From Ectocarpus siliculosus (taxonomy: Eukaryota; Sar; Phaeophyceae; Ectocarpales; Ectocarpaceae): a DNA stretch of 64,000 nt. The translations under genes were made by a program, and so were the position numbers. A model generated the notes under the pieces. The model made no database searches. It was not told the DNA's origin and was given only the letters and a program-made list of their open reading frames with translations. Every line of letters begins with the position of its first letter. The stretch's first letter is position 1. Location: contig FN649741.1 of assembly GCA_000310025.1 (NCBI GenBank), positions 4,024,035 through 4,088,034 on the forward strand, given 5' to 3'. Shown here in pieces: positions 1-28,691 of the stretch.

Positions 1-389
1 TTCGATTGATTGTTCTTAGCCGCCAAGCCTTCGTGAAGGTTAAGATTTTCTGTCGTATGCCTGAACACCTTGCGCGTACCCTATTGTCGAAGAGCGCGGC
101 TGGAAATAGTGTTTGACTACGCAGACGAGCGTTTTAAGCTACACATGCGTTCTCAATTGACGTGAAACGAGGTCTTGGTGTTCAGATCGAATGAAAACAA
201 AGCATCGCGTTCAGCCAGACGTGATCTATGCAATCGTGCCAATCTTGGTACGATTTGGTTGTTCTCTCTGCACCTTCGACGTGCCTCCCTGAAAATATTC
301 CTGAATTTATGACTCTTGGTGGTAGCGGCGAGGTAGTGGGGCAACGTCACAAGAATTGAAATCGTTTCACACTTTCCTCCCAAACCTAG
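1..389. other. Left edge, probably intron of the IQ-motif gene
   Basis: No open frame with coding character is visible on either strand. The last ~30 bases are pyrimidine-rich and end in the acceptor used by the exon at 390, so this is best read as intron sequence of the plus-strand gene. Confidence 0.5.
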
Positions 390-2086
390 GAGGTGAGCGC
401 GTTAGGGGCGACGATAAAGAAGCGTCGGGAGGAGCTCCAGGAGGTGACGCATACCAACGCCGTGGAGATGGATTCCATCAAGACGAAGGCGGCCGACGCC
501 GTGGCAAAAGCGAAGGAAGATCACGAAAAAAAGGTGTGCAATGTATTCCTATGCTTATTTTACTGCGTTGCTTGTGAAGTCTCGGCCAGTACTACCAGGA
601 ACGGCTCGGTTCTTCTTCTGTTGCAGAAGACAGGTGCGTTCTTTCGAGAACGCCGGGTTTAACGAAAACCATCAATTTTTGGACACTTTCACTTGGGTCA
701 CCACGATACAAACCCTGGTTACAACCACACAAACTGTAGAAACGTTCCATCGACATTCCCAAGGCCTTCAAGTGCCCGCCTTCCCGATCGCGCCGCCACT
801 ACAACTGTGTTCATTCACGTCGCACTCCCTCATCCGAAAAAGGGCCGAGCGCTGACCGAGCGCATCGAGCGTCTAGCGAAGGAGACGGGGGAGGCAGCGG
901 AGCTGCATCAGCAGGAGGAGACGGCATCTCGCAAGAAGAAGGCAAAGGTGGAGGTGGAACTGACCGCGACGGTGGGAAAGTACGACCGAGATATGACCGC
1001 GAAGACAGCCCAGATAGAAGAGATAAAGGTGAGAGCCAGGCACATGAATTTCAACTGCAGTCCCGTAGAACCCCACACACCCTACTACGCACGGCAATAG
1101 GTTCTTGAGCAGGGATTGTTGTGCGTGTACTCCAACATATTTTCGTATACTCTGATATTCTGAAGCGGCGAGGAAAGTGCACCACCTTGATCTGTCGGCC
1201 GAGATGGTCTGGACAGAACACATAGACGTGAGAACGAAACGCTAGGATGATACAAAATAATAGAACATCGATTTGACTAAACGATTCAAGTCCTTTGTCT
1301 AGAGTGTCCACCAAGACTACTGGACGCGTATTCGACCGAAGCCAAAGCAGTCAAATTGGGCCAGCGATCAAGGAAGCGGATGTCGGAGGGGAAATTGCTT
1401 GAAAATTAGCCCCTTACCACCTGTCTGGCCGTGGTTTTCATTATAAGTAGGCTGATCAGGTGCAAGCCGTTGCCGGTGGCCCTCAATGATCAGTACCGCG
1501 GCGGGTCAATGTTGTGGTTTTTGTCGTGACTAAGCTTCATCAGGAGGGCACCAAATACTCAATGAAACGTGAAGCACACCGAGTGGGAGATGCGCCAGAA
1601 TGGCTTCGGTGTACCACCAGGACTTCAATACGAGCTGTTGCTTCCAAATGCATCTTTGTCAAACCGAAAAATTTCAACAATGTCTCGCACATCTCGCGCG
1701 GTACTGCTGTGGTGTCCTGAGGTCGATTCTCCGATGTTTCCGCGTGAACAACAATCAATAAAGCCGTATCCCCATTCCGGCCCTCCTCGACTGCTTCCCC
1801 ATCCCCCGACAAACGACCACAGGCCAAGATGGAGGAAGAGCGCCAAGAGCTAGCTATTTTACAGGACCACTTCGACCGAGTCGACGCCAGCGGGCGACAG
1901 CAGTGGGCGGAGGAAGAGACTCTGGCCGTGGTTAGGGGGAAGGTGGCAAGGGCGATGGGCATCGTGGATGGAGCGGCCACGAAGATTCAGGCGATGTTTC
2001 GAGGGGGAAGGGACCGCGCGGAGTACCAGAAGGCCAAGAAGAAGGCCAAGAAAGGGGGAAAGAAGGGCAAAAAGGGAAAAAAATAG
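390..2086 (+). CDS. IQ-motif coiled-coil protein, DRC9/DRC10-like (C-terminal exons only)
   Basis: Three exons join in phase 0: 390-533, 843-1028 and 1823-2086 (stop TAG), giving the last ~197 residues. The upstream part lies left of the window. The first two exons are charged heptad-like coiled coil. The last has a charged helix starting MEEERQELAILQDHF, then one IQ motif (IQAMFRGGRDR) and a lysine/glycine tail (KKGKKGKKGKK). Coiled coil, one IQ motif near the C-terminus and a Lys/Gly-rich end is the arrangement of nexin-dynein regulatory complex subunits DRC9 (IQCG) and DRC10 (IQCD) of the axoneme; IQ motifs bind calmodulin. The choice between DRC9 and DRC10 is not secure, and another IQ coiled-coil protein is possible. 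The exon at 390 follows a pyrimidine-rich tract and CCTAG acceptor. The gene converges with the giant gene at 3440. Confidence 0.66.
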
Positions 2087-3439: not shown

Positions 3440-6400
3440 TCACATCACGGAGAGACCTCGGTTGGCTAGCTTATTACTCACGTAATTGAACGGCCCAAGT
3501 GCCTGGAGCAGGCTCGTCGCTAGCGCGGAGCATGTCTCCCTCGACTCCGCTTGCATCCTTAGCGCCAGCGCCTCAGAGTCTTCTCGAAGGACGCCGTCCA
3601 CTCCTATTTCGTCGATCTTGTCCAGCCCGAGCTCCCCATCGGTCGCCGGTCCGCGTGGTGGACCAGCGGCCGACTGGGGCCCCGGCAATGGGCAGGCGTG
3701 CGCCACCCCTGGCATCGCTGGCAGGCACTTGATTTTCTTTGTCATTCCCTGGCCGCCCTCGCCAGGAGGGGCAGAAGGAGGAGGAGTCTCCCCCCAAACG
3801 GAGGTCTTAGAGCGATGTCCAGCGTGCTTGGGGCCGCTCAACTTTGTGATGCTGGCGGGCTCATCCTGCACGGTACCGTAGCTGCTCGTATGATTGCTAT
3901 CTTCCGCGGCGTCGATGAGCTGATCCAGCCCGACCCGAAGGAGGCGCCGGCAGATCTTTTCGTTCCCGGTGGCAGCGGTTACAAGCGTCGTTAGAACCCC
4001 TTCCGCGACACCCCATTCGCCCGCCGAGCGGGAGGAGTGGCACAGCTGCGTTTTCAATCACGAAGACGATGAAACGTTTTTCGAGGCAGAGACGGGCAGT
4101 CCCTCGAGCGTTAGCAAGCGAGCGGCGTTCGTGCGGAGGTCAGTGTCGCATAGGGGAAAAAGAACAAGCCGCTACCAAAAACGTTGGCCGTAGTCTGAGA
4201 AAAGCGGCAACGTCAGCAACCTTTGCGGTGTAATGTGAAGCGACCCCGCTGAGCCTGACGAAAGCAATGTCTTTGGGAGCCACGAACGTGGATATGGACA
4301 GCACAACAGCGAGGTCCTGACCAAAGGGACTCCCAAAACACTACAACCTGTGAAACGAACGCCTCTCACCTGGACAAGCGCCTCCAGTCCGCCGGCCCGA
4401 ACGAACCGATTCTTGTTGGCGTCGTTGCCGTGCAAGCAGTTTCTCAGGCCCCACAACACGGGTACCAGCAGCGGTGCTTCGGTGTTGTGGTCGCACATCC
4501 CCAGGAGCACCGCCAATCCGCCGCTTTCGCCCAGGCTTCGCTGCTTGCTGGGGTTTTGCGATACCTGACCCGACCAGAGAAAACGCCGCAAAAACAAATG
4601 TTGGGCTTCATTGACCCACACAGAGGATAGTTCACACACGTGCGGTGTGGATACATTGAAGTGGCAGGGCTCGGTAGCATACGTATGGGGTGGATTTTCC
4701 AAATGGCGAAGAAGATATTTTGCAAAACCGATGTCTTCCGGTTCCCTGGCACGTAATTTGAAGACATGGAGACGTCGGTCAAGACGGCGAACACTACATG
4801 TAGTACCACTTGCACAAATGCAGTGTAGTGTTCCCGACTCGTTTCGAGAAAAATTGACAGGAACAACGTGCACGATGCCTGGTAGAATTTTTTGGCGATG
4901 GCATGACAACGAACTACGTAGAGTAGTTCACGAAACACTCGTGGCCTCTGATCCGTTCCTTACTTCCTGGGCAATTTGTTCGGCGGCCGCCTTTTGCGCC
5001 GTGAGGTTCCCCTTGGTCTGAACGATTCCGAGGAGGTGTGGCAGATCTAGCTGCTGCTTTTTGCCGCTGTCTTCGTCGTCGGCTTCCGTGCAAGCAAGTG
5101 CCGCGAGTATCTTCGCCGCCAGCTCTCGTTCCTGGCGGATAGAAAGTTTAGATTTGGACAGTTTGGATTTCCTTTCTGTCGATTGAGAGCGGCACGCGCG
5201 GAGTACCGCCGTATTCGCTGTGGTGTTTGCGGTGTCGTGGTTTCCCAAGTTGCGTCCCCAGAAACACATGCAACGTACCAATCGTAGAAACCAAGTACGT
5301 TTCTGTTCCCTGGTTGTGAACACTAACCGCCATTGCCATTAGAAAAGTGTTGTTTTCGATCAACACGGCAACTATTCCAAAATAACCTTGCCCTGCAGTC
5401 AAGGAAAAAGCTGTAGTCTACCTTTTGGTACAAATACAAGGAGGAAGTGTGACCACACTCCTTGCATTGTATCTGTTTTCGTGCAGCTAGTGGACTTAAT
5501 GACGTAGTGCGCCTCACAGGTTGCCCTGGGAACACAACAATTTCACCTCGGGTTGCATTTATTACACTGGCAGCGAACGGTCTATCGCCGATAACCGTTT
5601 AATGCTCGACAGGTTCTCCAGCGGCTACACTACGTTGGGTCACAGAAGGATAGCCCACTCACGAATGGTACTCTGGGGATACTGTGTTGAAACCAAAAGT
5701 ACACGTCAGTGCTCTCCAAAACAACAACACAATCTGGTGTCGTATTCCTGGTCGATTCACACAAACGTCGTCAACGGTAGGCTGGTCTGATAACTTTGTC
5801 GCACCTCCGGGTTATCCGAGCCCAGCAGAGCCACCGCCGCCTCCACCCCCCCTGCTTCCGCCACGCGTGACTTGTAGAGGTCGTGGACGGAGACGTTCAG
5901 CAGCGCCAGGGCGGCCGGGTGGCGCACGGCGGTGGGAACGGAAGGCGCCAGGCTCGACACAAAGAGAGCGATGCAACCGGCGTCGACCAACGGCGCCACG
6001 ATGCGATCGACGTACGTGAGAGACACCAAACAACGAAGTGCGGCCTCCTGGACTGGGGCGGGGTGATCGTGATCGCAATACCTGCATGGATCGACGGGGT
6101 GGCACGGCATGAATGATCGGCGATGTTTCAGCTCAAGCATCTTGGCTGAATGGAAGCGCTTAGACATGTACGTTCGGGAAAGTGTTCTGACTTCGAGGGG
6201 GCGAGAGGGAGGAATGGGGCACAGAAGTGGTCGCATATCGACAAGGACGAGGTTCGATCGCCCCATCTTCATGCTTATATTACATCTTTCCATTTGCCAA
6301 CTTCAAGCTGACGTGTTTACCGCGACAAACAGGTCCACAACGGTCGACATCGGGAAAGTACTTCTTTCCTATCTCAAGCAATATCAACACGAAAACGGGT

Positions 6401-9400
6401 GAGGGTTTCGAATATCACTCCCTCGTCAAATCAATAGCAACGACATTCCAAAAACAACTTGTCCAGTTCAATGCATCCCTATGCCGAGGCAGCGTCAATG
6501 ACGGCGTGGATGACGTCTAAAATCCATTCCCTCCATTCTCACCCAAGCAGCGTCAATACCGCCTCGTCGATCGCCTCCAATCGACGTCGATTGGCCTCGT
6601 GGAAGAACAGAGAATTTCCGAGACAGATGAGCGCGTTTGTTCGAATGGGAAGCCACGAGGAAGACGCAAGAGCCAACAGCTGCGAGATGTAGCGGCCGAT
6701 GCGTTCCTGCGGGGGAAAGGTCAGGTCTCGGGGTGAGTATGAGCACTATGGGAGGAGACGATTCTCCTCATGGCACGGTTCGATGGGATTCCAGGCAGAA
6801 ACGAGGTGTAATTCCGCGTACGGAGAAGAAGACCTCGGGTGCTTGCGGCTGCTTCTTTCGTCGTGTGTGTGCCGCAAAAGACCAACCGGTAATTTACAGC
6901 AATTGCGAGCTATCAACAAAAAGGGATACCCGACAATCATTCTTTAAGGCTGCATCGACAGTGCTCAGACGTTCGTGCCGATACGCTACCGAACCACAGC
7001 GCTAGCTGTTTGGTATCGTTTGGTTCTGGTCTTGTATTCTTAAGTCGGGTAGCAAACATGTTTACATCTCATGTGGCAGGATATTCACTGGTGGGCTCAG
7101 ATCATGTCGTCAAAACTGCTAGACAGCCTCTCGATGGCGGCCAGGCGAAAATTTGTCAGCATCAAATGCTAACCCCTACCTGATTGTGAGGGTCCCATGC
7201 CAGGTTTCCAAGAGCCCAGAGGGCATTCGCGCGGACTACGTCGTCATTGGTGTCGCACAGGGCAAAAAGGGCCTCTGCCGCACCCTCGTCGCCCGCTGTT
7301 GCACGGTGAACGTCTGTCTGGCACACGTTTCCGATCACCAGGGCGGCATGTCGTTGCACCTGTTTTGGTCGACGAGATCGAGTGCGGGTGATAAAAAAAT
7401 GCAGAGGGGAGAACAAGACAGAAGGAAGACGGCGCAGCGTGTTGTCCAACATCACGGACATTTTAAATCGACACCCCGAGACGGGGCCGCATGATCTGAC
7501 CATATCTCACGGTGCGTGAACAAGATCGATCGGGTGTGCGAAGAGTAAGCTAAACCACGAAGACAAGCGTGGTGACACCTGACGCGGTCGACACGATTGG
7601 CGTTTCGAATCTCCCATTCCCCCGCTACAGTTGAGGGCGTACTTCCCCTGTTTTCAACATGGTATCTACGAAACCCTAACGAACATTCTGTGTTGTAGCA
7701 GTACCAGCGAACTCCACCAAGGGATAGTCACGGATTCCGGTTCGAGATACTTCCAAGAAGTTCCGGGCTCCGTGACTACAAGAGAGATCAACCGTCCAGA
7801 GAATCAACGCCGTCTTACCTGCAAGTTGTGAGATCCACACATGAGAACCAAGGGGCTGATGCCTAAAGAGTGTATCCTCACTGTGACCTCATCCCCGTGG
7901 TTACGGGTGGCGTTGACCAGGGCTTCGGCTGCGTTAGCCTGGATTTCCTCCGCCTGGAAAGGGATGACGAGCACGACATAGTATGAAACTGAAGAATGCC
8001 GTGCGCTTCCGGACCTCTTGAGTGCGGCGAAACACCCCTTTGCCACTACAGTATACTCCCGTTTCCTCTGGTGATGGGGAACATGTCATCGAGTATTCCC
8101 ATCCACTGCTCTGGACGCTTCCGTTAACAAGGCGATGGTGGTGTCTGCCACTGCTCTGGACGCTTCCGTTAACAAGGCGATGGTGGTGTCTGAAAAATGG
8201 TACATGTCCGCGGTTGTAGTACTGATGCTAACGCATGACCGAATAACATGAACAATATATGTTATCCCCGACTGATCCGGTCGCAACCTGGGATTGGGAG
8301 CAGTGGAGGCCAAGGAACCTTTGCAACAGCATGTTCGAAAACTCTCGAACTTCATGGTTAGAACGAGGGGCACGAACGCGTCTGTAATGCACTGCACGTT
8401 CGCAATGGCATTTTCGGAAACCCTCCAACTTGAATGCCAAAACGGGGCATGACCGCATCTGTAGTTGCCAGCGCACGCACACACACATGCATGCATGCAG
8501 TCACGAAACGGACACACTCATACCTGGTCGAAGTCAAGAAGGTTGTGCGGTTTGTACGACGACACCAACCCCACCAGAACGCCTATCCCACCGGCGGCTA
8601 CAAGCCTCACGGCGTTGGCCTCGCTGTAGCAGAGCAGGTTAGCCAGGGCCGCGGTCGCCGCTTGCACCGCGTCGACGTCCATCGTCGCCGCCGCTCCGCC
8701 CTCCTCACCCCCCTCGTCCTCGACGCCACCCTCCTCTTCGTCCTGCCGCCGTGTCACAATGAAACCCTTGTTTCCCTCACAACCTACTTTAGTCGCGCGC
8801 TCCGCACCAACGTCGCGAGTCTCCGCCTTCTCAGCGTTCGCTTCATCCGTCGAAGACATGTGTTCTTCCTGTTCTCCGCACTCTGCTGTAGCTCCCTGGT
8901 CTCTCTTGTTCGACGGTTCCCCTTCCTTCTTGGTCCTACCCACCCGCTGGACCTCGCCGCGAACGCCCCCGGCCTCGTCTTCTCCAGATTCAGAGCGTCC
9001 TCGCCCATTAGTAGTTATATTGCTTGGTGTAGATCTCCCTCCTCCACTTCTTCCTCGATTACCGCCCCCTCCCTCCGCCTTATCGTCAACTCCATCCTTG
9101 TCAATGCCAGAAGCAACGAGCGGCGTACCACCCCCACTCGTCCCGCCACGATGGCCAACATCGCCCGCATCCACGCCAGCCCTCCCGCGACAGACGTCGA
9201 GCAGCGCTTCCACGGCCCCAGCCTCCCCCGCCTCCGACTGGTACGACGGAGAGCCGAACGCCAGGTTGGCGAGGGCGGTGGCGGCGTGCGTCTGCACCTC
9301 GGGGTCCGGGTGGGGCAGCAAGCTCACCAAGACCGGGATGAGGTCCGGCGCCGCCTTGCCCATGCGGTCGGCGTTGTCCTCGTGGTATGCCGCCACGCTT

Positions 9401-12400
9401 AGGGCCGAAGCGGCGGCCCGAACGACCTCCCAGTCGTCTCTCTCTCTGCATAGGCGAGTCTTTGTTGAAAGATGGGTGATCCGGTCCGGGAGTTGAAGGG
9501 ATTTACATCCAGATGGCAATATTGAGGGCGAGGGGAGAAGGAAGAGGGAAGAGGGATGAGGGAAGACTGGGGTGGAACGGGAACTTGGGGGCCAAGGTTG
9601 TTTGTTTTGATGAACTTTCTCATGGTCACGGGTATCTCTTGTTCGGATCCATCTGGTGTTGCTGGGACCGCAGGAAGAGACGAAACGACTGGAAAAAAAG
9701 TACGTGTTCCTCCAACATACCTTACGTCGACTGATCGGGACGAAATGACGTTGGCTCACTCTCCTACGTATGAAACCCAGAGGCCTACTGAACTCACCAG
9801 CAATGCCACAGCGCCTCCTCCTCCTCCCCGACCGCTGCCTTCAGCCACAATGTCGTCTCCTCCTCCTCCTCCTCCTCCTCCTCCTCCCCTGGCGCCTCTC
9901 CTTCCGACACCCGCTACCTTCACCACTGTGTCCACCCACGCCTCGGGGACACCGGTTCCAGCCGGCGACCACCCGCCGAGTTCGAGTTGATTGGCCTCGT
10001 TTGGCCCTTCTTGCCTCCTAGCCCGCCTGAGGGCCCACTGGCGGCGCTCACGCACAACGGCTCTTGCGCTCATTGCCGCTCTTGGCCTGAATTCTTCTTC
10101 CTCTTCCTCCACTCGTTCTCCTTCATTTTTCTCAGCGCTGCCGTGTTCCTGGTTCTCATCCTCTCCCACGCCACCAAGGCGGCCGGCTTCCGGCGTCGCC
10201 GTCGCCGTCGCCGTCGCCTCGGTGACAAGTTGACCACCCTGTCCATCTCCTGATGACGACGCCCTCTGTCCAGACTCGTCGACAGCAGAATTGTCGGCAA
10301 GGTCGTCCTCGATTGAACGCGAGAAATATTCTTTGGTTGCCTTTCCCGGCCCCCTCTGCTTGGAAAGGAGCGGTGGGCTGTTGGGGCTTCTGCTGGCTTG
10401 TTCGTGCCAGGCAGAAGCAGGGGATGGAGAAGGGGGCGCTGATATCTGATCGGCATGCCTGAACTCCTCGGGTCCGTCGAAGGTCCGCCCCCTCTCCAGC
10501 AGCCGTGCCTCCTCGGCCGGGCAGCATGATTGCACCCAGAGGTCCCAGTGGCGGTAAATGTCCCACGCCAAGACACGCGCCTGGTTTTCAATCGAAGTTC
10601 AATAGAGTTGTGCTGAGAATTCAGTACTTGTTCCAATTTTACATTTTACCTTGGTGCATTCGTTTGACAAAACGTGAACTCCGTCTGTTTGCGTAAGAAA
10701 CGAAGCTGGGAACGTAGATATTGAGAGTTCATCGTTAGCAACAGCAGACGAGCGCAGTTTCTTCGTCGTCCGAGGTGATCAACTGTACGATGCTGGGTCG
10801 GGACGAGGGTCGAGGAGGGCACAAACGGTCAGGTTGTAGAAGCGTTTCACAGACATCTCAACGGGTCTTCTATGGCGAGGGAGTATGCACACGTCCTCTC
10901 TGGGTTTCCAGGAGGTGTTGGAAGTTAAACCCTACCCGAGGGTATTCGACATGAAATTGTGAAATCGCCAGAACCCATCGTCGCCAGTGCCTGAGAGCTC
11001 AACCAGTGTTTGCAGGACAGCTAAAGACACAGCACTAGGCTTGATCCCCGTGCACAAAGTCCAGCAGTGCACCTCGACACTATGAGTACATGTGGTGCCT
11101 TTTTGAAGATGTCGTAATCTACGGATGACTGAGGGCGGCGGAAAGCACAGAAGCGTCTTGTGTTACCTCGGTGTGGCCGTTCCAACCGAGGGCTCCCAAT
11201 GCTCTTGCGGCGAGCCGTCGAAGATCCTTGCGAGGACCGCGGCAGACGGCAGCAAGCACCTCCACAGCACCTGTTAGTTTGGGGCAGGCAACGGGTTCAC
11301 GTGTTCATGCGTTTCGTGATGAAAGTCTGGCGTTTACCCAAGCCTTCCTGGTTCAGTTCCCAGCGGGCAGTGCCATGCATACGCGAGTGAGGTTGTTGTC
11401 AGTAGGCAACGTGATGGTCCTTCGGCGTCAACAACGGAAACGTGCATTGGTCTCTTCGGAAAAGCACCTCCGAGAGAGAACAGTGTACGCATTTAGTAGC
11501 TGGTCGCGACGAGCACGGCGGTGGATATCGTCGAGGCACAATGCCTGAGACTGCTCATGCCAACACTATTAGGCAAACTATTTGGCCGGTATGAACGTAA
11601 CACGGCACACTTCGTCCGCTAGCGAAGAAGCAGTGTACATACACTGATCATCGCGTGCTTTGAAAGCATCGTCAGAGGTTCAAAACAGCTGACCCGCCTC
11701 TCTGCGATGATTCCCAATGACGAATAGAAACTTTTGGGTAGAAATAGGTAGACCTTAAACTTGACGGGGCAGGCTTTCAGCATAGAGGTGGCCTACTATC
11801 GTAGCCAATGAACAACTGTGAAGAATATGCATCGCTTTTCGAGACGTCACAAATTGAGTACTACCGCAAGCACTCACCGTTAGCGCGTAAGGCGTCGTTG
11901 TGTGTCCGTCGAGACCCAGCCAGGTTGGCCAGTCGCTGCGCGAAGAAGAGGAACAGGCCGTCCACGCTCGTGCATAGGAGGCGGATGGCCGTGCGATGTC
12001 GCCACACCTTGTGTCTCTCCTCCCGCTTTTGTCGCTCGTGTTCAATCCTTTCCAGCGCCTGGAGCCGCCTCATTTCTTCTTGGGTTTTGATGTGGAAGCG
12101 AATCTGTGTTGTACGCATATCAGTTATCGAAAGGCATGGAATCGCAGAGTACGAAAGCCATGTGTTGTATCGTGTTGGGCCATGGACGGGGAAGGGCTCA
12201 TGGGCTTGGTACATTAGGTGTTCGCCTTTCTGAACGATGGTTCTCGTCGAGCACGCCGCGGGGCTGGTTCCGAGGGATGGATGATGCCCTGTACCATCAC
12301 CACAAAGCAAATCTGAGACACGGAAACACGCATGATGCCAAGAGGCCTCGTTCGGCAAGGGGTACACCTTGCTGCTAAACTCCTTCGTTCATTGTTCCAT

Positions 12401-15400
12401 AGAAAGTAACGTGCTCGCACGCGCGATAGCTCCCATGCCAATGTACGAAGAAGTGTCTGAAAGATCTTCGTCGGCGGTTTTCCAGATGGCCGCCTGGTTT
12501 CGAGCGGAGGCTGTGCGTTTTCTGCCAGACGCAATGAGGCACACCGGCGACTTAAAAATATCCAAACTAGAACATAGCACCGAAATCGAAAATCCCTTCG
12601 TTCACTTTGCTGACCTCATCGTGCAATGCTGCGATCCAAAGCTCCAGCCGCAGCGAATGCATCCTCTCTGCCCGCAGCTCCGTTCGTAGTTTCTCGGAAA
12701 GCACCTTCAATCACCAGCAACAATGCAAGCATTGTCACAACAACAGAAATGCCCACTACGGTACATACACGAAGGAACACAAGCAGGCAGGCATACTTGA
12801 AACAGCATCTTGAAGGGTGTTTTCCGAGTTTGAATACAAGGGGACTAAATCCTTGGACACAGAAGCTACGCCAGTGCATCACGGCCCGTGGTACCTGTCA
12901 GCATGGTCATGCCGACCGCAGGTCGCATTCCCGACGGTGTGCAAAGTCAAGAAAATTGGGCGTGTGGTATTCTGAGCAGACGGCCAACATCATCGGTGAT
13001 ACTACAATAAGAAAGTTGCATTCAGGGCGATTTCGAGCATCCACACCCTCGCGCGGTCCTTCACGATCGCCAGGCGGTCTTCTGCGGCCTCCCTCTTAGC
13101 TCGTTCCTGAGCAAGGTCGTGCCTCAGAGCCTTTACCCACGCCTCCGTGTTGGAACGCCCGCGGTTCAGCTGCTCGATACGGGCGGTCAGCTCCGCACGA
13201 ACCTTTTTGAACGTTAGCGTAATCAGCACAGAAATTGGGGGAATGGGGGGCATGTGCACATCGGTATTGGATTGTCCTGGAAGCGTCGGAGAACAAAGAA
13301 AATATTATCACGAGCCGCGGTGTTGAGTTTGGCCAAACACGGTTGAATCCGTCGCAACGAGCAGCCTGATTGCCTACGCGTTCTGCATGAGTCTCTCTAT
13401 TCTGCGTTGCGAAACAGAAAGACAACGCTTCACGTACCGATTCTATGCCGACCAAGTGACATTCCCAGGTCATATATCCATTGATTGGGATGCCGTGTCA
13501 AAATACACCACGCCCCTTGGGGAAGCACACGCCCCTCAGGAAGTAAGAGTGTGCTCGGAATCCGAACGGGATATCATTCATCCTCAGCAGGGTTACTTGG
13601 GGTACCCGGACACTACTTTATCAACCCCCCTGCCGAGTAAGTATCGAGCTCGACGTTTGATTTTTCCCTTAGGAACGAAGGTCTAACGATAGGCGGCAAC
13701 CCCTCGACAAAGAATCAGTAGAAGGGCTCACGCACAATGCCATATCGTCGAAGGTCGTCCGATGTACTGCTTCTTAGGAGTTGGCAACACTCTATTGTTT
13801 TGGTAGGATCGGACAGCAACAAAATTGGAATCTAGATTAATTTTTCCTGTCCATTTATTGACCGGTTTCATTGCGTGCTGCTGGTCTCTTCCCAGAACCG
13901 AATGCACGTCACTTATATGCTGGCCACATATGCTTGCCGTAAAATACCTCGTTGTACTCCTTGCGGAGCTCGGACAGAGCCTGCTCTAGCTTGTCAATGC
14001 GAGCGGCAGACTCTTTCCGTTGTTTCTCCAGAAGGCCCTGTGATCGTGTTTTAACAAGCAAGGCAGGTCGGAGAGAGAAACGATGAGGAGGGCTGCATGT
14101 ATGTTTGAACTGGTGATGGGAGCCGTGCGAAATGCTCTGGATATCTTCTCTTTGGGGTTACCATTAAAACAGTCCGAAACGTCTCGTTAAAAAGAGGAAA
14201 GCTTAGATATCACATCATGGCAGGCGACAAGAGCAGGAGCGCATAAGCACGGCAGGGCTCAAACCGCATAGGAACCCCCAAAGAAACAGTTAGATCATAC
14301 ATGTCTTGGCTGCGTTTAGACTCGACTACAACTGTGCTACTTGAAGTATGCACACAAACATTTAAACGTTGTCGAAAAGCAATACTTGCTATGCTCTACC
14401 TTGTATTACACGCCCTCCCCGACCCACTAGGACGGGCGTTCAAAAACACTTCAAAGTTTATTCGTTCGTACACTCTCAACCTTTCCTCAGTACGTGTTTT
14501 TATTAGCCAATGCTGCAACAATACAGGTCCTTGGAGCCTTTTGAAAACTGTCTTCATGTTGTGCGGGGCACATTCGGGCGCCTTGAGGCGCCCGCGCAGG
14601 GCATTTGGATGGGTACTCCTTTAAGTCTCGAAGAACAGATTGCTCCTGCTTTCGTGTTATCGTTATGAAGATAGCCGTATGACGAGGGGTTCGCTCGTTT
14701 TCTGGGCGTGGTATGCCTCAAAGTTATCGCTACAGCACTCAAGCGGTATCGCAACACACCAACGGCACGACACACCTTCAGGCTGTCGACAGCTTCCCTC
14801 CCGGCGGTCCTCAAGGTCAGTATCTCGTGGTCTCTCCAGCCCTCAATCGCCCCTAGCTTGGCCTTGAGGATGGCGACGTCGCGGGCGGCCTCGCGGACTC
14901 TCACGCACGATGATTCCACGGCCTCTTGCTCCACGCGTAGCTCCCGTGCGTGCCTTCCGAGTAGGAGACGCACCTTCGTTTGTCCAGGCGGGCAGACAAA
15001 TGGAGCCGCAGTTTGATTGATCTTTTTTTGCAGGTGTTTGTGCCTTGCTTAGAGACATAATGTTTCCCATGATATTTGTAGGAGCTCATCGAACGCACAT
15101 GGAAGCCCCTTAACCCTTGCGTTGTGCTCAACTTTGCCTACGCGAGGTAGCGCCCCAACCCTTCACCGTGCGTGTCGACGTGCAGTTGGAGGCAAAAATA
15201 TCTGCTGTGCTCAATCCTAGATAACTATTTCCCGTTTCGGTGTCAACGCAGCTCCATTTCAGGGGCCCTCGAACGGGCGCGAGGCCAAACAAATCAATCA
15301 AGAACCCTTTTTCCATACGCCAAAGTGTTATCTCTATCCCATCGAAATTCCCAACAATCCCTTCACAATGACCCACCTCATCTTCGTGCCGTTGCTTCTC

Positions 15401-18400: not shown

Positions 18401-21400
18401 GGTTCGTCCACCTGATCACGCTTGGCGAACAGCCGTTCGTTCCCGTAGATTCAGTAGACATTTTCCGTCGAAAAATGAACGCGGAACCATGCAACACCGT
18501 TCGCACCTTGTAAGTGCAGCCAGGGAATCGAGATTCAAGTGGTCTAGTCTTGACTGGTGGCATGTGACAGACAGCCGCTCTTTCCGCTCCACCTCAAGCC
18601 GCTCCCACTCGCGGTGATTGTACTCGTACACACCCATGGCATCGTTGTACCTGGTATGGGAAAAAGACGCGCTTCGGTTGGTTGATTGGTCTTTTGGTCT
18701 GTTGTTACATTCGACACCATCTTGCTCCTCGAGTGAGTCTACTCATCCTATGCAATCACTCTGCCTAGGTAATCTCTAGAACACCCCAATCTGCTTTACC
18801 CTCCCCTCCTCACTCTGCCATATTCTTACCGATTCACCTCAGACCATGTGGCTAATTCAAGTCCGACTTCGCTCCTCGATTTGATTCGATGCCGGTTCGG
18901 CGCTCCCATAGTTGAGCTTCTCTTGTGAGCGTTCGGAGTTGTTTATACAAAATCTCAAATAACGCAGTAGGCTTCGCTTTTGTGTATGTTCCTCTCTTAC
19001 CTGAGCGTTTCTTCCTCGAGCAAAATCACCACCTCTGCTTGTCGCTGGCTGATCACCGTCGTGATCTGTTGCAGCTGTTTCGACGACATGGTCTTCCCCT
19101 CGGGTAGCACGATTGGTTCACCGTGGTCGAAATCTCCGCCACTTTCGAAATTGTTTGAGGCGCATGCATACGTTCGTTGTGAAAGTTTCGGTGTTATTGA
19201 GAGGGAGTGCGAGACGGCAGTGGCGGGTGTACGGACCGATTGGCGAAATGAGAAGAAACTTCCTGCAACAACGCTAACGTTCGGTCCTTCTTGTGTACCG
19301 CTGACTAGCCAATCGATCGAGCGCGACATCGCAGTACGTATGCATGACTGATCCGACTCCACGACCAGGTTCAGCAGCGTACAGTGCACCCACCGTATTT
19401 TTTCCGAAAAAACGTCCACTTCGTCCTGCCGCATTTTCTCTGCGTCGGGTACTAGCGACGGCGGTAACATCCGTCCCGGGTCAAGCGTTGGCGGCTTCAA
19501 CGGTGTCACCAACGGAAACATCAGCAAACAATATGGCCAAAAGATGGGACGAGATAGTGAGCCGAGTCGAAAGGCAAGTCAACCTCAAGAGATGGTGCAC
19601 GCTGGGTCGGAGAGGGTTGACAACCAATGCAAACAGGGGCGAATAGATACAAATGGAAGACTTACTTCTAAGGTCTGTACGTTATTTTAGTTAAATGAGG
19701 TCTTTCCCGGTATCACGGCGTGTTCGTGCGTAACAACTTGCATCCATATCCCATCTGTCTGCACGTCTCTTTGTAGGGAACGAGGAAGGACAGAGAGGTG
19801 TATGCCCGACTGTGTTTGGTAGAGACATACTCTAAACGTGAGGTGTTCTCTATATCAGCACCTCGAACTTATTGAGTAAAGCTTTCGTTGAACCAATAGC
19901 CACAGGGTATCACAACCGTAAACATCAACTTCACGAACAGGTGCGGATCTACCGAAGACTTACGGACGGTGGCTGCGGCTCGATCAACGGCACTCTGAGA
20001 CCCCTTATCTCCATGGCCATCTTTGCCATACCGGCCTGTTGCCGTGAAGCATCGAATGCTAGGCCCGCGAGCGCCATCTCCTCCGCTTCGACCAAATCTT
20101 TCCACCTAATGCAGCCAGGGGTCAGGAATATTCGGGCAAGGTTGAAGGCCGAATGCGAACCTGATGACTTTTGTCGCCAGGGTTATTCAAACACGTTATT
20201 ACACACTTCTGCACCGAATTTCGTACTAGCATGCGCCCAAAAAACGGCCAGCACACCGGCCTTTGGCACAGTCGTGGCAACGCGTGTGTCGGGGCGATCA
20301 ACCGTCATCGCTCGGTAGTTTCTACTCTCTTGTGGAAGACGGCACGAAATCGAGATACCACCCAAGGCACCTCGCCGCTGCTTGAGCTCGCCCTTCTTCC
20401 AGCAGGCCCTGCGTCTCGTTGATATCAACGAGAGTTTGATGCAGCGCTTCCTCCAGTACCACCGCCTCGTAGCGGAGAAGCTCCCTGGCATCCTGGCAGC
20501 CGCGTCTACGAGAGCCTTCCTGGTACCGCCAGGTTGGCCATGCGACCGTTGTTTCGATCAAGGACGCAAACAATACGGCAGCAGAGGCAGGCGTGTTCGA
20601 TCCGACTCGATCTTGTGAGGCCGGGGTCATCTTTGTGGTCCATTCGCCCAATGCAGTCGGTTTGCACGATGGAATATGAGACAATCTGTCAAAACATGTC
20701 TATGATAACTACTAGTGTAGTAGCAGCACGTGGAGGGGCACGGGAGAACGGCGAAGAATGGAGAGATAGTAATGTCCAAGCTCACACGGCGCGAGCAACA
20801 AGAGCAGTTTCGTCCAGCCGAAAAGAAGACCGGAAAATCGGGTATAGCCGATACAAGGACAAACCGTGTTTGAAGGTGACAATCGAAGCCATGGTCAGCC
20901 TGAAGGGTCGCTACACATCCTCAACTCTCACGCCATTTCTGGAACTTGCCGTGTCTGCTTGGACGCTGTTGGGGTCGTATCCTCTCGGTCTGGCAAGAGG
21001 GGCCTCATCTCGCTGGCGCAACATCTCCATCGTCTCCTTGCGCCGCGCCATTTGCCCTGCGTGTTGCTTTTCTTGAGCCTGTGCGCCCACAACACGAGTG
21101 CCAAGAAAGAGAGCAATGATAGCCCCGTCATTGACGCCCGGGTGTATGAGTAACCAAGCGAGCAAAATCGGGCGGAGGAGCAGGCCTCGAGTTATAACGC
21201 TTCAGTCGCGCTTGCGGCAGGTTATGATATTGTGCAAATTGTGGTACACGACAAAGCCAAAGCGATACACAGGCCGTTTTGATCCAATGTGGTTGATGGA
21301 GTGATCGGCAAACCCTGGCTGTTGTCCAGTCCGCTGGAAGAAAAGTAAACGAAAAGGGCAGGATGAACATCGAGAGGGGGCTCGAAAATGTCGTGTACGG

Positions 21401-24400
21401 GAACTTGCTGCCAAACATTGAAAGATATCCCCACGCTCATACCTCCTGGTTATTCCAGTCGTCAGGGATAGAAAACTGAACGGCCCTTCCGCATTTTCCT
21501 GCCGCCACTAACGAGGGAATTTCTGCACCAAACCGGAGCATGACGGCGGACTGTATCACAGGCTCGTCTTGTGTTTCGTCGTCGCAGTCCTCAGCTTTAG
21601 TCAGGCACCCGCTGCCTCCCCGTCCAACGATCATTCCGCTGGCACCAGTCTCGTCGTAGAGATCAGCACTGCCGTCGCTTTCTGTGCGTGCGCTTGCTCC
21701 TAGCGAAATGGGGTTCGTGGCCGCCGATACCTCAACAACCTTGTTCAACCGCTGTCGTGCCTTGTTGAACAAGGGTGCGGCAGGTGGCGGGTTGGGGAGG
21801 CGGTGGTTACCACGGAAGGATTGAGGAAGCGTTTACTGCAGATCAGGCCGTTCGGGGTGCGTGACCACAAGAGTTCACAAGCCAAGTTCCAAGTATTCAG
21901 CGAAACCGTGTCTGGTATTCGTCGTAACCTGGTCTACAATAGTGGCGACATCGTCCTCACTCCTGCCTAGAAACTCAATCGGCAATCCACGCGTAGTGCT
22001 ACTTCAACTTTGTCGCGGTATTGTTGAAAGCCACGACATCGATAACCACCATCACGAAACCGCGAAAACATTGCACAACACCATGACACAATCAGAGAAG
22101 ACGGACAGGGATCCTAGCAACCGTGACGGTCAATGGAACCGTTCCTCTGCGCATACCTCTTGAGCCGCCGCTTCAGCTGCCTGCTGAAGAAAGCCTCGCC
22201 TCGAGCTCATAGCCCCCATGCATAAAGCCCGGGCTGCGGCATGCCTGGATGAGCTCCCAGATAGTGGATAGTCACCGCTACAATCGCCAACGCTGCCACC
22301 ACCTCCATCACTCCCACTGCCACTGCCGTCGCCGTTGTCGTGGTCGACCCGGGGTATCCGCGTTTTCGTTCGTCGCGGTAACCCCGGAGCCACCTCTTCT
22401 TCCCGCTTCCCTATCTGCTCGGCGAAGAACGCGGCAGTGCCCCAGCGGTCGCCCCCTCTAGGGTCCCAAACGCTTTGTGGTGGTTTTTGTACGTGGTTCG
22501 AACCGTTAAGGCCTGCCCAAACCGCCTCCGCTGCCAGCGCGTGAAAAGCTGCGCATGAAACGGCGCCGCTACTCCCCCCCTCCTGTTCCTCGGAGGCACG
22601 AGCGAGAGGGAAAGCTCGATCGCCGATCTCTTGAGCGAGAGTGTCGGGCAGCGTTTTCGACGGATTCGAGAACCGTTCCTCGGTAACCTCCTCGACCCCC
22701 ACTGTAACATCGCCCTCGTCTGAATTGGTTGGATCAGAAAGGTTCGGCAGCGACGGCGAGCTTCGCTCCTCTTCTCCTATGGCGCTGCTGACCTGTAGCT
22801 GCTCCTCTGCGGACCCTTCGTGGTCGGTTCGGTTGCTTCCGCGAGAGCCGCCGCTGGCGGGTTCGGCAGCTGCCTCCCCTGCAGCTTGCGTGGTGGCCTG
22901 TTCGGCCGCTGTTTCAAGTGCTCGATCCCCTTCTCCGCTGGACGAGGCGGTGCGGGGGCTACTTCCTGCTGGTTCTGTTGCCGCTGTGGCAGGATCTCCA
23001 CCGTTAGATGAAGCGGCACCAGCAGCGGCAATGACCATGTCATCTTCGTTGGTCTGCTCACCTCCTACCGCCGACCCGATTGCTGCGTCGTCGGTCGTCC
23101 TTTCCTTCTTGACCTCCTCATAAACCCCACCATCGCCTGAAGTGTCACGGGCATCAGCTGCGTTCGTCACAGCTGTCGCGATATCCGCTGAGACTACGTT
23201 CGTCGACGACAACGTCGTGTTACCACCTCCTGGGCTCTCGTCAACTCCTTGTACTGCACCGGCATCTGCTAGTTCTTTAGTGTTTCCTGCTACCACCGTT
23301 GGTGCGGTCACGTTTCCTTCTACGTCTTGGCTCCTTGCGGTTCCCTCCCCCGACGCTCCTAGTCCAAGGGCGAAGTCGTGCACTTCCAACTCTTCCAATC
23401 GTTTCGCGGCCAGGAGGTCGTGGGCCAAGTCTTCGAGGTTGCGTCGGACCAACTTTAGCCTCCTTTCAAACCTTTGCACACAAGATACAAGAACCGATGC
23501 GAGTGTTGCCCAAAAACGCTCCCGGTATGACAATCTTGCGCGGCTGTGCCGAGCGGAAGCTGTTGCCGCCATCGCCCGAACGAAGCAAGGTAGAGATTGA
23601 CCATGACCAATTTCTACCAAATGAGTTCTCGCGTTTTTCGTGTCCAAGAGATCATGCGATTGACGCCTTGCTGAAGTTCTCTTCGTCCATCGTCCTCAAG
23701 GTATGGTGAGTTTCATCGTCGAACGTATCGCTTCACCTATATTTCGTATCGCCTCACCTGTTTTCTCGTCTCGCGAGCCGAACGATGATACTTCTGATCT
23801 CTGCAACATCTGCGGGTGCTCCCTCCCAACTGTCTCTCTTATCCTTCTGGACAGCCGCGTTGGTCTCAATGCCTTCTTCCTCATTTGAAGAATTAGCCGG
23901 CCCTTGGTAGCACCAGCCTTCGCCTCCCATGGCAAGCTCCTCCACGCTCTGGAGATGAGAAATATTGCGAGTAAGGTTTCGCGAGCGAGTGCGTGTCAAC
24001 ACAGAACGACAAAAACGTCGGCGATGTCTAGCTCTTCAGCAAATAGCAAATGAAGAAAATTATTCTTCCTACAAGGTGCAGACAAGTTCTGGTGGATGGA
24101 ACCTTCGTATTTATGGGGCAATGATGTCCACCTGGATATCGTACACGAACTCGTCTTGATCTTCGTCGTCTTCATCACTGCTCTCATCGTTGGCCTCGCC
24201 ACTCCCATCCTCAAGAGTCAACGGCTCGTCCGCCTTTCGTGTCCGTTTTTCTTCTGCTTCCTTGGCTTTGTTAAGCCACGTGATAACCACCCGGGCAGCC
24301 TAAATCGGTGCAGAAGATGCATGCATTGTAAGACGGAGAGTGCAACAGCGAGGAAGAAGTGATTTTTTTCCATATATTCAGCGAGAGAAACGAGATCAAC

Positions 24401-27400
24401 ATTTACAATGAATGGTCACGAAGAAGCAAACTCAGTACACCCTGAATGGCAAATCGTTTCGTCGGCCATTCGCGGCGTTCGTATTGACGTAATGTTATGG
24501 TGATTCAGTACACACCTCTACAGCCACATCCCTCGAAACCTCGTCTTGGGTGGGGCCCTCCCAGCCCTCTAGCTCGTGCTCTCCAAGCCCCATGGCTTCG
24601 CTCCAGCCCTTGGGTTCCGTTTGAACCACATCCCCTGTAGCACACAGAAGGCACGAAAATGTATCAAATGGGGAGAGTATGGAAAAAGATCGAGACTATC
24701 GTTGTAGCTCCACGATCTTCGTTGTAGACTGTGTTGGTGCAGGGAACGACCCAAAATTCACGAAGCTTGGACGCAGACTCCTAGTCTTAGCCAACCGACA
24801 ACACCAAAAATTGTAGAGGCTTTTGCCCAAACGTAGCGCATTCAATCTTCTCAGCTTAACGATATTGCAATTACAGAGGCGTGTGCTCGATCGCGCAGAG
24901 CCGCCACCTTTGAGATTAGTGCTTCGAATGAAGAATAGAGACAGCCGTAGATACAATACGATTGTTCCCGGGGATTGTCATGCGGCACTCACCGCTGCGA
25001 GAGTTCTGCCAGAACGGCTTGCCCCATCCATCAGTGCCTTGTTCCCACTCTCTGGGGAAGGCGAATCATGACCAGTTTCCACGTACGGTCGGGAAGTCAT
25101 GAGCGTGGGATGGCTCGGTTAGATGGGTACGTTAGCATCCTAGCATCATGAACCTTACTTACACATGTGATATGTTTTGATATTCGTCACCTGGCACGTG
25201 GTTCAAAGAAGTCCATTTAAGGCACTCTTGCGTGCTCTGTAGCGACATCGTTTGCACGCTCAAGGCTACACCACCTCACCTTCCCCGTACCATATTCCAC
25301 CTACCTGAGGGCCTGAAGCCTCGGGTCCACCTTTTCCCCTAGCTCGTTCCTTCCGAGCGGGGGCCTGTACTTCATCTCCGGCGGCGGGTCGTACACCGCC
25401 TCCCCCGACTCCCAGTTTGCGTAGTATGTTCGACCGTAGTCATCAACTTTCGTCTCCCACTGGTTCACAAGCCCAGACGCCAGACGAGAATGCGATGTTA
25501 TCAGCGGTTGCGAAACACGCACACTGGTGGTCATGTGTTCATGCATTGGCAATAGGGTACATGTAGCACTCTGCGCAGCAATGTTACAGTATTTATTGCA
25601 ATCAATAAAGTCACTATGGCACGCGGACACTCTGGTTACAAAATGTAGTTCGCCGGAAGTATTCACCTTCGCTGCTGCCGCAACTCCAGCTCGGATGGCC
25701 TCTACCAGGTCTCTCTCTGCCTCCAGCTCTTCCATCTTGAGAGTTTGTTGGGCTCTTTCTTCCGGCGTCATCGTGCGGAATCGCCTCAGAATGGAGGGTA
25801 CGAGCCAACCCTCTGGCCATAAATTGGCGAGGTATCTGGCACGACATTAATGGTCGGGCGAGTCGGGAGTTGTTCATTTTATGTAATCACGAGAAACGAT
25901 GGGACACCAATAAATGAGTGGTAGCAGGGTATCACTTTCGGCCAAACGAAACCTTCAGAAATTCTCATTCTGCTGTTGAACGCCACCGAGAGTAAATTTA
26001 TCCAGTTTTTCTTGGCATAATGTAGGATGCTGTCAAATACAGTCAACAAATCGGGAAAAAAGGTCGAAACGGGGTAAGAGACACACCGTCGGTCGGACTC
26101 TCGAAGGGCCTTTTCCTCTTGACGCCCAGCGTATGCGGCCGCCAGCTCGTCTTCCAAGGGAAGCTTCACCTCATCCACGCGTTCTTCAACAGCCTGCGGC
26201 AGCCGAAGATGGAGGTAGGCGAGAGGACGATGAGGCAAACAAACGAGCACACAGACAGGTAAGACCGACAGCCCGACACAGGCAGACAGACAGAGAGGCC
26301 GGCCTACGCTAGAAACAAGTTCATGACATGCACCGTCGTATTCGATGAGCACACACAGGACACAAGTAGCCAGCCGCCAGCCATGTTCTACTCTGTATCA
26401 GATTCCCTTGACGATGTCCACTGTCACCTGAGTGAACCTCTCTTCCAGTTTGTTCGCCCTGTCTCGGGTTTGTTCAACTTCCACGCCTGCCGTCGCCAGA
26501 TCTCGCGTCAGTTGTTCTATCCTGAGGCCTCGTTCAAACAGTTCTCGGTTTTGCTGTTCGATTTTCTTCGTCGCAACCTTCACCGCTTCGTTGGCTTTAG
26601 TGACCACCCGTACCCCCTCTTCCACCTTGAGAATACGCACAAAGGAAATTGGCACCGCAGGGCGGCCGACAGAATTCGGAGCCGGAGCCATGTGTGTGAA
26701 TGAGCGTCCCCCTTTTATGTGAACCCTACGGCATTCTCATATATAGCGCGTACTGTTCGACACGAAGGCAACATTGTAGGTTGAACTGCACCTTCGTCAA
26801 ATGTTATTGTACATGATGAAGGTGATTAATCCCTTCCCATCCGGTGCTGGGCATCAGCAAACACCGTTCACACGTCCCGCCTACACTAACACAACTTTGG
26901 CAATTCCACCTTTGTGACGCGAGAATCAGTTTCATCCATTGCGGCAGACATCATCTCGCAAAGAGAGGTAACGGTCGTGCCGCACGCCTCCCATTCCTTC
27001 TTCGTCTTCCGCAGTGCCGCCGCCTCACCCCTGTTGATATGCCAGTTACGGAAAAACGAATCCTCGGTGAAGAAAAGCGCATGTCTTCTGGGGAAGCCGT
27101 ACATCACTTTTCTACGCCAAGCAACAATGGCTGAACAGCATCCAAGAGCCGAATCGTCCATAGTAGATTCCACCCGACCACCTGAACGTGTCTGCAGTTC
27201 TCAATGCCGCCAGAAGGGGTATGGAAATGCTGCCGTTGGCTTCCAAAAGGAATCGCTCGTTCTCACACCTGATTTCATTGAGGGACACCTCGAGCTTTCG
27301 AGCTTGGAGCTCGGCCTCTTTTCCCTTCTTAATGGCCTTTTCTTGCTTCTTCTTGCCCTCGTCGAGGGAGTCGATGTTGTTCATAACTTCCGCAATCTCT

Positions 27401-28691
27401 AGAATGCGCGGCTTGTCGTAGTCCGATTCCCCTGATCAAGTATATCGAACGGCCATAAACCAATTTAGGCAGTAAGCGTGGTTTGCGCCGACTGCTCTCT
27501 TCAAATCCGCTGCGCGCTGGACCTGCCCCTCTGGTATGACAGTTGGAGCGCGACGCTGTAGCTGTACCTCTCCTTGAGAAGTACCCTGTGGGCTACTACA
27601 GTACGCGAGCGGTGCGTACTCAATAACCATCTTCGCTCTGAAATATTTCTTCTTGTCTAGCACGTACGTCTTGTTTCTGAGGAAATTGGAATCCAACTTT
27701 AAATCGCCGATTTGCATCACCCTAGGCCAAGTCGTCTGAACCTCACGCACCGGTCTCCGAGTTGTAGTAGTACGGCTTGCCCTGCTCATCGGTTGCCGCC
27801 GCCCACCCCAGCGGATCACCCGTGAATGCCCTCCGAAACTTGTCGAGCTCCGAAACAATTTCCGCATTCTTGGCGTCGGCATGCTCCTTCGCCGCTTGAA
27901 GCCTTGCTGAGGAGTCTTGAAGGAGGTCCTGTGACGTACAACGGGCGCGGTTGTAGCCGGCGTTGCTTAGTGGATCTCAATAATCTTCACATCGCACTGA
28001 TATCTGCTGTTGTGTACTTGCAACAGCGTCCCACGACCTAAGTACACCTTGAGTAAACAACGCACAGGTTTCTATCTCCGGATTTCCTGTACTGCGGCAC
28101 AATACACTCGACACTGGACTCGTAAGCACACACAGGGGCGAGGGCGTCCGACGGCGACGAACAACAGAGCGACGGCGGCGCGATCGACGAAGGCGGCCCA
28201 AGGCCGCCTGAACGACCTGACCCAACCCATCCCGACGACGGATGAACGATGGGGCGCGGCGGTGCTACTACGGCGTATAGTCTATTGTAGGCTATTGTCG
28301 AATGTCTTGACTACTGCTGCTGTAGATTTCTACGCTCGTCGTTCTGTTCAAATTTGCTCACGAGACTGCTACCGGCGCGTGCCCGCCCCAGCCACAGACT
28401 AAAGTTGTTGGAGATAACCGAGATAATCGACCATGTCACCCGTCCTACAGAATACACGCGGGTGCGCTATGAGTTCTCGTATATGTACACGTATAACATG
28501 CCCTCTCTACGTAGTCTAGTGTGTTACGGTGCGGATGTGCGGATCGAGATCCTCACGTGTTTCTCGCGTTGAAACTCATCATTCTGAGCGGCCAGCCTGC
28601 CTGTCCACTCGTCGTTGAGCTTGTCATAGTCGGCATTGAGGGCCTTGAGCTTCTCTTGAACCTCGAGCAGCTCCGCATTGCCACCGGACAT
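3440..28691 (-). CDS. Giant WW / coiled-coil / armadillo-repeat protein (~40 exons, ~3,044 aa)
   Basis: One continuous minus-strand chain runs from ATG at 28691 to TGA at 3440. About 40 exons join with matching codon phase at every junction (summed CDS 9,135 bases). The N-terminus is coiled coil with three WW-like domains (about residues 85-112, 370-397, 421-451). Next come an acidic stretch, a ~438-codon low-complexity exon, roughly 720 residues of charged coiled coil and a C-terminal armadillo (ARM) array from about residue 1863. WW domains bind proline-rich ligands; ARM arrays form superhelical protein-binding surfaces. The whole suggests a cytoplasmic or cytoskeletal scaffold, but I recognise no known family with this architecture and assign no function. 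It could instead be annotated as two or three genes; the unbroken phase and the lack of internal stops argue for one. An upstream in-frame start is possible. Exons are listed in the four block entries. Confidence 0.82.
8103..8192. repeat. Perfect 45-base tandem duplication in an intron
   Basis: Two identical 45-base units, 8103-8147 and 8148-8192, sit in the giant-gene intron between exons at 8524 and 7953. Read on the minus strand each unit has its own CAG acceptor and an open frame. However, including it breaks phase with the flanking phase-0 exons, so it is probably not coding. Perfect identity suggests a recent event. Confidence 0.85.
9855..9892. repeat. CTC/CCT microsatellite coding for poly-Gly
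   Basis: A run of CTC triplets on the plus strand lies inside the minus-strand exon 9798-10580, where it encodes consecutive glycines near the end of the exon. A second Gly-rich run follows closely. Length is likely to vary between individuals. Confidence 0.8.
11878..21078 (-). other. Giant gene exons 15-30: long coiled coil
   Basis: Exons: 20932-21078, 20371-20519, 19964-20105, 19001-19098, 18573-18650, 18044-18137, 17472-17534, 17035-17159, 16223-16382, 15677-15851, 15377-15540, 14776-14973, 13948-14037, 13047-13202, 12615-12704, 11878-12103 (about residues 1145-1862). Nearly all are short, Glu/Arg/Lys/Ala/Leu-rich helical exons, for example RVAELRESLVEEGRRRRQLY and KESAARIDKLEQALSELRKE. 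Exon 19 carries YNDAMGVYEYNHREWERLEV. The exon 20 donor appears to be GC (GAG|GCAAGT at 18043), because a GT donor nearby would break phase. Ends of exons 18-20 could shift by a few codons. Confidence 0.75.
21443..24299 (-). other. Giant gene exons 11-14: acidic and low-complexity region
   Basis: Exons: 24132-24299, 23758-23948, 22157-23471, 21443-21760 (about residues 481-1144). Exon 11 ends in an acidic run (ESSDEDDEDQDEF). Exon 13 is 1,315 bases, the longest in the gene. It starts with a basic helix (FERRLKLVRRNLEDL), then a long Ala/Gly/Ser/Thr/Glu-rich disordered tract, then a short ordered-looking segment with tryptophans (VWDPRGGDRWG), and ends Gly/Ser-rich before an Ala/Glu helix. Exon 14 reads as a moderately hydrophobic, partly structured segment with no recognisable domain. 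The start of exon 14 is the least certain: AACAAG at 21761 and CGACAG a little downstream both keep phase. Confidence 0.75.
24516..28691 (-). other. Giant gene exons 1-10: coiled coil and three WW-like domains
   Basis: Exons: 28557-28691, 27751-27928, 27182-27431, 26910-27030, 26428-26625, 26087-26193, 25667-25784, 25305-25459, 24993-25051, 24516-24634 (residues 1-480). Exon 1 opens MSGGNAELLEVQEKL, a coiled coil. WW1 spans exons 2-3: W, then TDEQGKPYYYNSETG, then YDKP. WW2 is in exon 8: W, then DDYGRTYYANWESGEAVYDP. WW3 is split over exons 8, 9 and 10: W, then TDGWGKPFWQNSRSGD, then QTEP. All three keep the first Trp, the aromatic patch, Asn and the final Pro, but the second Trp is Tyr, Tyr and Gln. 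Exons 3-7 between WW1 and WW2 are Lys/Glu-rich helix. Confidence 0.82.

Follow-up and report, generated by a model that had tools for sequence, protein, structure and literature searches.

A candidate giant WW/helical/ARM gene of about 40 exons in the brown alga Ectocarpus siliculosus

We examined a 64,000-nucleotide (nt) stretch of the Ectocarpus siliculosus genome (hereafter the window; G000:C16:4024035-4088034, from an assembly of 189 Mb in 492 contigs), on the minus strand of which a chain of exons running from 28691 down to a TGA stop at 3440-3442 is predicted to encode a very large protein with WW domains in its N-terminal part, helix-rich segments in its middle and an array of ARM repeats towards its C terminus. 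A preliminary description of this DNA had proposed about 40 minus-strand exons and a coding sequence divisible by three, and both hold in our conservative splice model, which comprises 39 exons and 7,710 nt of coding sequence including the stop (2,569 amino acids). In this model, exons 1-5 lie at 28691-28557, 27928-27751, 27431-27269, 27030-26910 and 26625-26428; exons 6-10 at 26193-26087, 25835-25667, 25570-25305, 25051-24993 and 24634-24516; exons 11-15 at 24299-24132, 23879-23758, 23471-22394, 22180-22157 and 20519-20371; exons 16-20 at 20105-19964, 19494-19279, 19098-19001, 18650-18593 and 17534-17472; exons 21-25 at 17159-17035, 16382-16223, 15809-15677, 15540-15377 and 14973-14776; exons 26-30 at 14037-13948, 13202-13047, 12704-12615, 11935-11878 and 11270-11167; exons 31-35 at 10307-10170, 9459-8524, 7953-7819, 7359-7180 and 6706-6543; and exons 36-39 at 6081-5805, 5131-4964, 4564-4370 and 4045-3440. 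Phase 0 is found in 26 of its 38 introns, which average 462 nt, the longest (22156-20520) spanning 1,637 nt. With a guanine-cytosine (GC) content of ~53%, the window is close, in GC content and mean intron length alike, to the values in passages of PMC6418280, where three brown algae have a GC content of 54-56% and introns averaging 530-740 nt.

Exon number depends on how the gene is modelled. A first gene model, retrained on its own output, was over-fitted (173 exons) and was set aside, while the others range from 38 to 55 exons; the second and third, the conservative one included, drew their training exons from the gene under study. Because these earlier models were self-trained, we built an independent codon model from other genes, using 11,598 nt of kinesin and WW matches, 30 of each, that lie in other parts of the genome; its splice-site weights still derive from this window. 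With the stop fixed at 3440, it returned 43-52 exons and 2,901-3,079 amino acids across four settings, in keeping with the ~3,000 residues first proposed. The conservative model under-calls exons: coding-looking stretches that it omits or takes only in part lie at 21760-21443, 21078-20917 and 12078-12008 and across much of 10598-9759, and the first two of these, minus-strand stretches in phase 0 that are absent from the conservative model, are likely to be extra exons. Exon 13 is possibly unspliced, as 23471-22157 forms a single open frame. The single start and single stop originally reported did not survive, since both outer ends of the gene model are ambiguous: a rival in-frame ATG lies upstream at 28754, an extra exon appears at 28945 when the start is left free, and the independent model, when no end was imposed, spliced beyond 3440 and ended at 2708 (6/6 runs).

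The exons are almost certainly those of a real coding gene. The preliminary description had pointed to matching codon phase at every junction and to the lack of internal stops, both of which any splice model yields; what stands in their place is a free-edge test, in which each exon core picks its own splice sites regardless of its neighbours, and in which phase agrees at 27 of 38 junctions (P = 2.3e-6 against a one-in-three expectation; 16 expected, P = 7e-5, when shuffling keeps the phase-0 excess). Under the independent codon model, the model frame is the best of three in 37/39 exons, the two misses being 24 and 58 nt long, and it is preferred in 35/35 exons of at least 60 nt, whereas 53-61% of stop-free control windows prefer it (taken, at no more than 150 nt each, from introns, from the right flank on either strand and from the strand opposite the gene). 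When exons were trimmed to control lengths, the frame still won in 97% of sub-windows, with 4/35 exons winning in fewer than 90%; the mean in-frame score per base was 0.008 in exons vs. -0.09 to -0.11 in controls. Homology also crosses the junctions without frame breaks, the first WW domain (WW1) extending over the exon 2/3 junction and one alignment to Vac8 crossing five exon ends (33-37) and reaching a sixth (38). It could be argued that the open frames arose by chance or that the gene has decayed, given the long low-complexity stretches and the spread in exon number between models; the frame preference and the unbroken homology speak so strongly the other way that we regard this as extremely improbable. 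It is refuted by the controls for the larger exons, and the small exons remain uncertain.

Both protein-binding domains named in the preliminary description are present above their Pfam cut-offs. For WW (PF00397), the N-terminal part scores 41.3 bits against a cut-off of 26.9, in two stretches. A helix-rich stretch (exons 1-2, 27820-28691, from helix analysis) precedes WW1 (residues 82-116, 27397-27820, interrupted by the intron that follows exon 2), which is recognised by Pfam and by a profile that we derived from 22 of the genome's own WW exons. The second domain, WW2 (residues 393-423, 25373-25465), lies within exon 8 and is assigned from the genome-own profile, predicted strands and fold matches. 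The genome-own profile gives WW1 31.2 bits and WW2 11.9 bits, the best of 300 shuffled proteins reaching 1.5. Another stretch, residues 447-476 in exons 9 and 10 (24603-25050), resembles a WW domain by eye and is not significant with the same profile (-3.3 bits). On these scores, the protein has two predicted WW domains and one stretch that merely resembles one. Among solved WW domains, that of PRPF40A is nearest to WW1 in sequence. For WW2, a single-sequence structure model contains two five-residue strands and a two-residue third, with a mean predicted local distance difference test (pLDDT) score of 66 and core blocks at 84 and 77; in a fold search, 50/50 listed of 460 matches are WW-bearing, one or two of them presumably so, and all have E values above 0.05.

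What sets these WW stretches apart is the position of the second tryptophan (Trp). According to passages of PMC4301871, the first Trp of a WW domain maintains the fold and the second is part of the xP (proline) pocket. At the second position, WW1 has tyrosine (Tyr; SDYDKP), WW2 likewise has Tyr (AVYDPP) and the third stretch has a residue other than Trp (VVQTEP), so that two Trp residues 20-22 residues apart are found in none of the three. Elsewhere, the second Trp is present in 28 of the 30 best-scoring genomic WW exons (27 by script and one, L044, by reading, since its match stops two positions short), the two with Tyr being L034 (G000:C16:338962) and L043 (G000:C26:5787112); a point against the contrast drawn here is that these 30 are the best of 75 matches, are therefore biased towards canonical domains and include a few near-duplicates. 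As the second Trp is lost in all three stretches, the proline-rich ligands originally assumed for the WW modules are doubtful: Tyr at this position would be compatible with some binding, and it removes the ground for assuming that such ligands are proline-rich.

Between and beyond the WW domains, helix analysis marks a helix-rich region in exons 3-7 (25667-27396, between WW1 and WW2) and central helix-rich segments, interrupted by proline/glycine-rich stretches, in exons 15-28 (12615-20519). These are separated by an acidic low-complexity linker in exons 12-14 (22157-23879; net charge -36 over residues 641-961). Heptad-like periodicity (z of at least 3) is found in 6/51 fifty-residue windows (residues 151-200, 301-350, 351-400, 1201-1250, 1351-1400 and 1451-1500), and proline/glycine-rich and acidic low-complexity sequence interrupts the helical stretches, for example at residues ~640-960 and 1051-1100. 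The very long coiled coil of the preliminary description was thus too strong a term. Exons 17-28 have no sequence relative in the PDB at E ≤0.1.

The ARM array is recognised by Pfam (Arm, 83.6 bits against a cut-off of 20.6, E 6.3e-24), and one of its exons is also detected on its own, at 9.26-9.34 kb; three HEAT models, ARM_ARMC5 and an ataxin-10-associated model likewise exceed their Pfam cut-offs, and no NCBIfam profile matches the array. The array begins with a first ARM segment assigned by reading (residues 1584-1637, exons 29-30, 11167-11935), the start of which shares an open frame (11864-12388) with a helical segment. This is followed by a glycine/glutamate-rich open frame of 280 codons (9759-10598), taken in part as exon 31, by the ARM repeats of exon 32 (9184-9438, which contain the best Pfam Arm stretch and form helices in a low-confidence model), and by an acidic, glycine-rich insert of 170 residues (8674-9183, net charge -13, delimited by charge and the same model). 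The main array then extends from the last part of exon 32 through exon 38 (4370-8673, Pfam Arm and a continuous Vac8 match), and the last exon (3440-4045) adds, from helix analysis, final ARM-like helices, a proline/glycine-rich tail and the stop. A single-sequence model of exon 32, poor overall (mean pLDDT 47.5), shows helices, a long low-confidence stretch and helices again, and the insert is probably disordered.

An asparagine (Asn)-ladder motif matches eight times in the array at repeat-like spacing, compared with a mean of 1.3 and a maximum of 8 in 2,000 shuffles; it counts against this result that the ladder pattern was defined after the repeats had been inspected and that at least one of the 2,000 shuffles also reached 8. 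Two of the eight motifs have the WxxxN form that importin-alpha is known for, and the array is acidic (net charge -26). Because of the ladder motifs and the acidity, our guess is that the ARM ligand might be an extended basic peptide. A charge-based block of the array by its own insert was considered and is unsupported, as both are acidic.

The preliminary description treated the whole interval as a single gene, and judging from the sequence we consider a single transcript from 28.7 to 3.4 kb likely. With a boundary penalty of 8 and a free start, the independent model returned one gene in 6/6 settings. The helical segment at 12078-12008 and the first ARM segment at 11935-11878 lie within one open frame (12388-11864), with at most an in-frame intron of 72 nt between them, so that this short piece of helix, at least, is tied to the array. 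The competing possibility is that two genes adjoin on the same strand, a WW/helical one of ~1,000 amino acids (28.7 to ~22.1 kb) and a helical/ARM one of ~1,900 amino acids (~21.1 to 3.4 kb). Several results weigh against a single gene: when the boundary was uncharged, two-gene models scored 1.7-2.9 units above one-gene models in four of four settings; a split of the conservative model (28691-19949 plus 19470-3440) scored level with the unsplit one (1275.5 vs. 1275.2); and the longest intron, 22156-20520, could house a gene boundary, which for that reason would fit best there. The exon 13 frame also continues to a natural stop at ~22130, an in-frame methionine lies inside the likely exon 21078-20917, and the third, self-trained model split the gene in one of four penalty settings, giving one gene in the other three. 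On the other hand, the extra start and stop of a second gene carry a bonus of 3 units, about the size of the two-gene advantage, so the score is undecided between one gene and two, and similar scores are obtained at many cut points. The frames at 22157, 21760-21443, 21078-20917 and 20519 connect in phase 0, and free-edge phases match across 22157/20519 and 19964/19425, where the chance probability of each match is one in two or one in three. On balance we think two genes unlikely, at well below even odds, and a single gene stands as the likely reading, with cuts into two that score equally or slightly higher.

A different question is whether the product might be a flagellar (axonemal or basal-body) scaffold akin to SPAG6, an ARM protein, or to CEP164, a WW/coiled-coil protein. 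Brown-algal gametes are flagellated, the 60 ARM matches listed include SPAG6 (E 5.9e-6), and the adjoining gene matches DRC10, an axonemal protein, a neighbourhood that says little in genomes of this kind. However, Vac8 is a far better match than SPAG6 and importin-alpha is about equal to it, so the SPAG6 match reflects generic ARM repeats; CEP164 is absent from the PDB sequence matches listed for the N-terminal half (33/33 and 41/41), appearing only as a weak WW2 fold match, as do many other WW entries; and the central segments lack a PDB relative at the threshold given above although the library holds axoneme entries. A flagellar role is accordingly improbable. The adjoining gene itself, convergent and on the plus strand (window positions 1-2083, L062), appears to encode a dynein regulatory complex protein of the DRC10 type and has a C-terminal IQ motif; with its exon pieces joined by eye, it matches five PDB chains of DRC10 and a sixth of DRC9, the best at E 1.3e-10.

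Comparison with known proteins gives partial likenesses. Vac8, an ARM solenoid, is the best natural-protein PDB match to the array (E 2.5e-15, one stretch of ~340 residues); designed ARM proteins outscore it, and the match is one of generic ARM repeats. Vac8, a vacuolar ARM-repeat adaptor, is not known to have WW domains or a long helical half. The WW domains of PRPF40A and Prp40 are, among solved chains, the closest to WW1 in sequence, whereas Pfam lists no FF domain in this protein at E ≤1 and the second Trp is replaced by Tyr. The ARM_ARMC5 model is barely above its cut-off (81.8 vs. 79.9 bits, three stretches), and BTB, the partner domain of the ARM repeats in ARMC5, is not listed by Pfam at E ≤1. 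In CEP164, a WW domain near the N terminus is followed by helical stretches, and to our knowledge the protein carries no ARM repeats. The second WW domain of WWOX, a short oxidoreductase protein, has the same Tyr at the second Trp position.

Within its own genome, the gene is apparently single-copy. The N-terminal query found 11/11 matches within this gene, and the ARM query found 12 matches, of which seven belong to this gene and five are weak and lie on the same contig. We found no second gene with the WW/helical/ARM order in this genome, a missed match being no proof of absence, which limits what this says for a single-copy gene. The five weak matches form a cluster of other ARM exons at G000:C16:2.98-3.00 Mb, 25-35% identical to the array. 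Prokaryotic (ARM query) and viral (ARM and N-terminal queries) contig collections gave no match, which is uninformative on the absence of eukaryotic relatives. A literature search, which covered mostly titles and the openings of abstracts, returned no description of this domain order, and the passages of PMC3942036 that it brought up concern myosins. The earlier claim that no family with this order is known is therefore unrefuted within the genome itself, PDB sequences and the literature search.

We reasoned that one very large gene for an elongated scaffold protein is the best explanation as a whole; it is plausible, and we rate its chances as even. A scaffold had also been proposed in the preliminary description, there as a link between proline-rich ligands and an ARM surface. 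The sequence itself shows the coding exons, the homology to WW and ARM, the missing second Trp, the ladder motifs, the acidic insert and the open frame common to a short helical segment and the first ARM segment; a single transcript, dimerisation, the ligands and the cellular place are what we infer. The N-terminal and central helical segments would lengthen the protein, which would probably be dimeric; the WW modules, folded but altered, would make structural or partner-specific contacts and would not act as general readers of proline-rich sequence; the C-terminal ARM solenoid would offer the main binding surface for an extended basic partner peptide; and the long acidic insert may, at a guess, tune access to that surface. 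The protein would thereby tether an ARM-bound partner to the contacts of its N-terminal half. More speculatively, and in our view doubtful as it stands, it could belong to a stramenopile- or brown-algal-specific family of giant scaffolds in which the WW fold is kept and the proline pocket lost in every copy, the WW domains acting as spacers or as pairing modules along a dimeric rod, the ARM end capturing a basic peptide and the disordered acidic insert tuning access.

These are known modules in what appears to be a new arrangement. If there is one gene, its domain order is unmatched to any described family within the searches made, and this in a lineage that evolved multicellularity independently and about whose large scaffolds little is known; if there are two, they are ordinary proteins of known modules. 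A set of WW stretches that all lack the second Trp would also be a clean test case for a WW fold without its proline pocket.

Elsewhere in the window, plus-strand exons of Major Facilitator Superfamily transporters lie at 30439-30792 (above the Pfam cut-off) and at 49776-50480 (below it), and a long simple-repeat run coding for leucine, serine and phenylalanine occupies 59549-60408 on the minus strand. In the genome at large, a search of the assembly for plastid rbcL found none, so that on sequence grounds the brown-algal lineage depends on a fucoxanthin-protein match. We noted 87 light-harvesting matches, many of them equal-scoring on G000:C92, C232 and C488, as if in tandem copies; the one light-harvesting protein that was checked matched FCP17 (9ygv) over all 181 residues (E 7.4e-114), with other fucoxanthin-chlorophyll proteins next.

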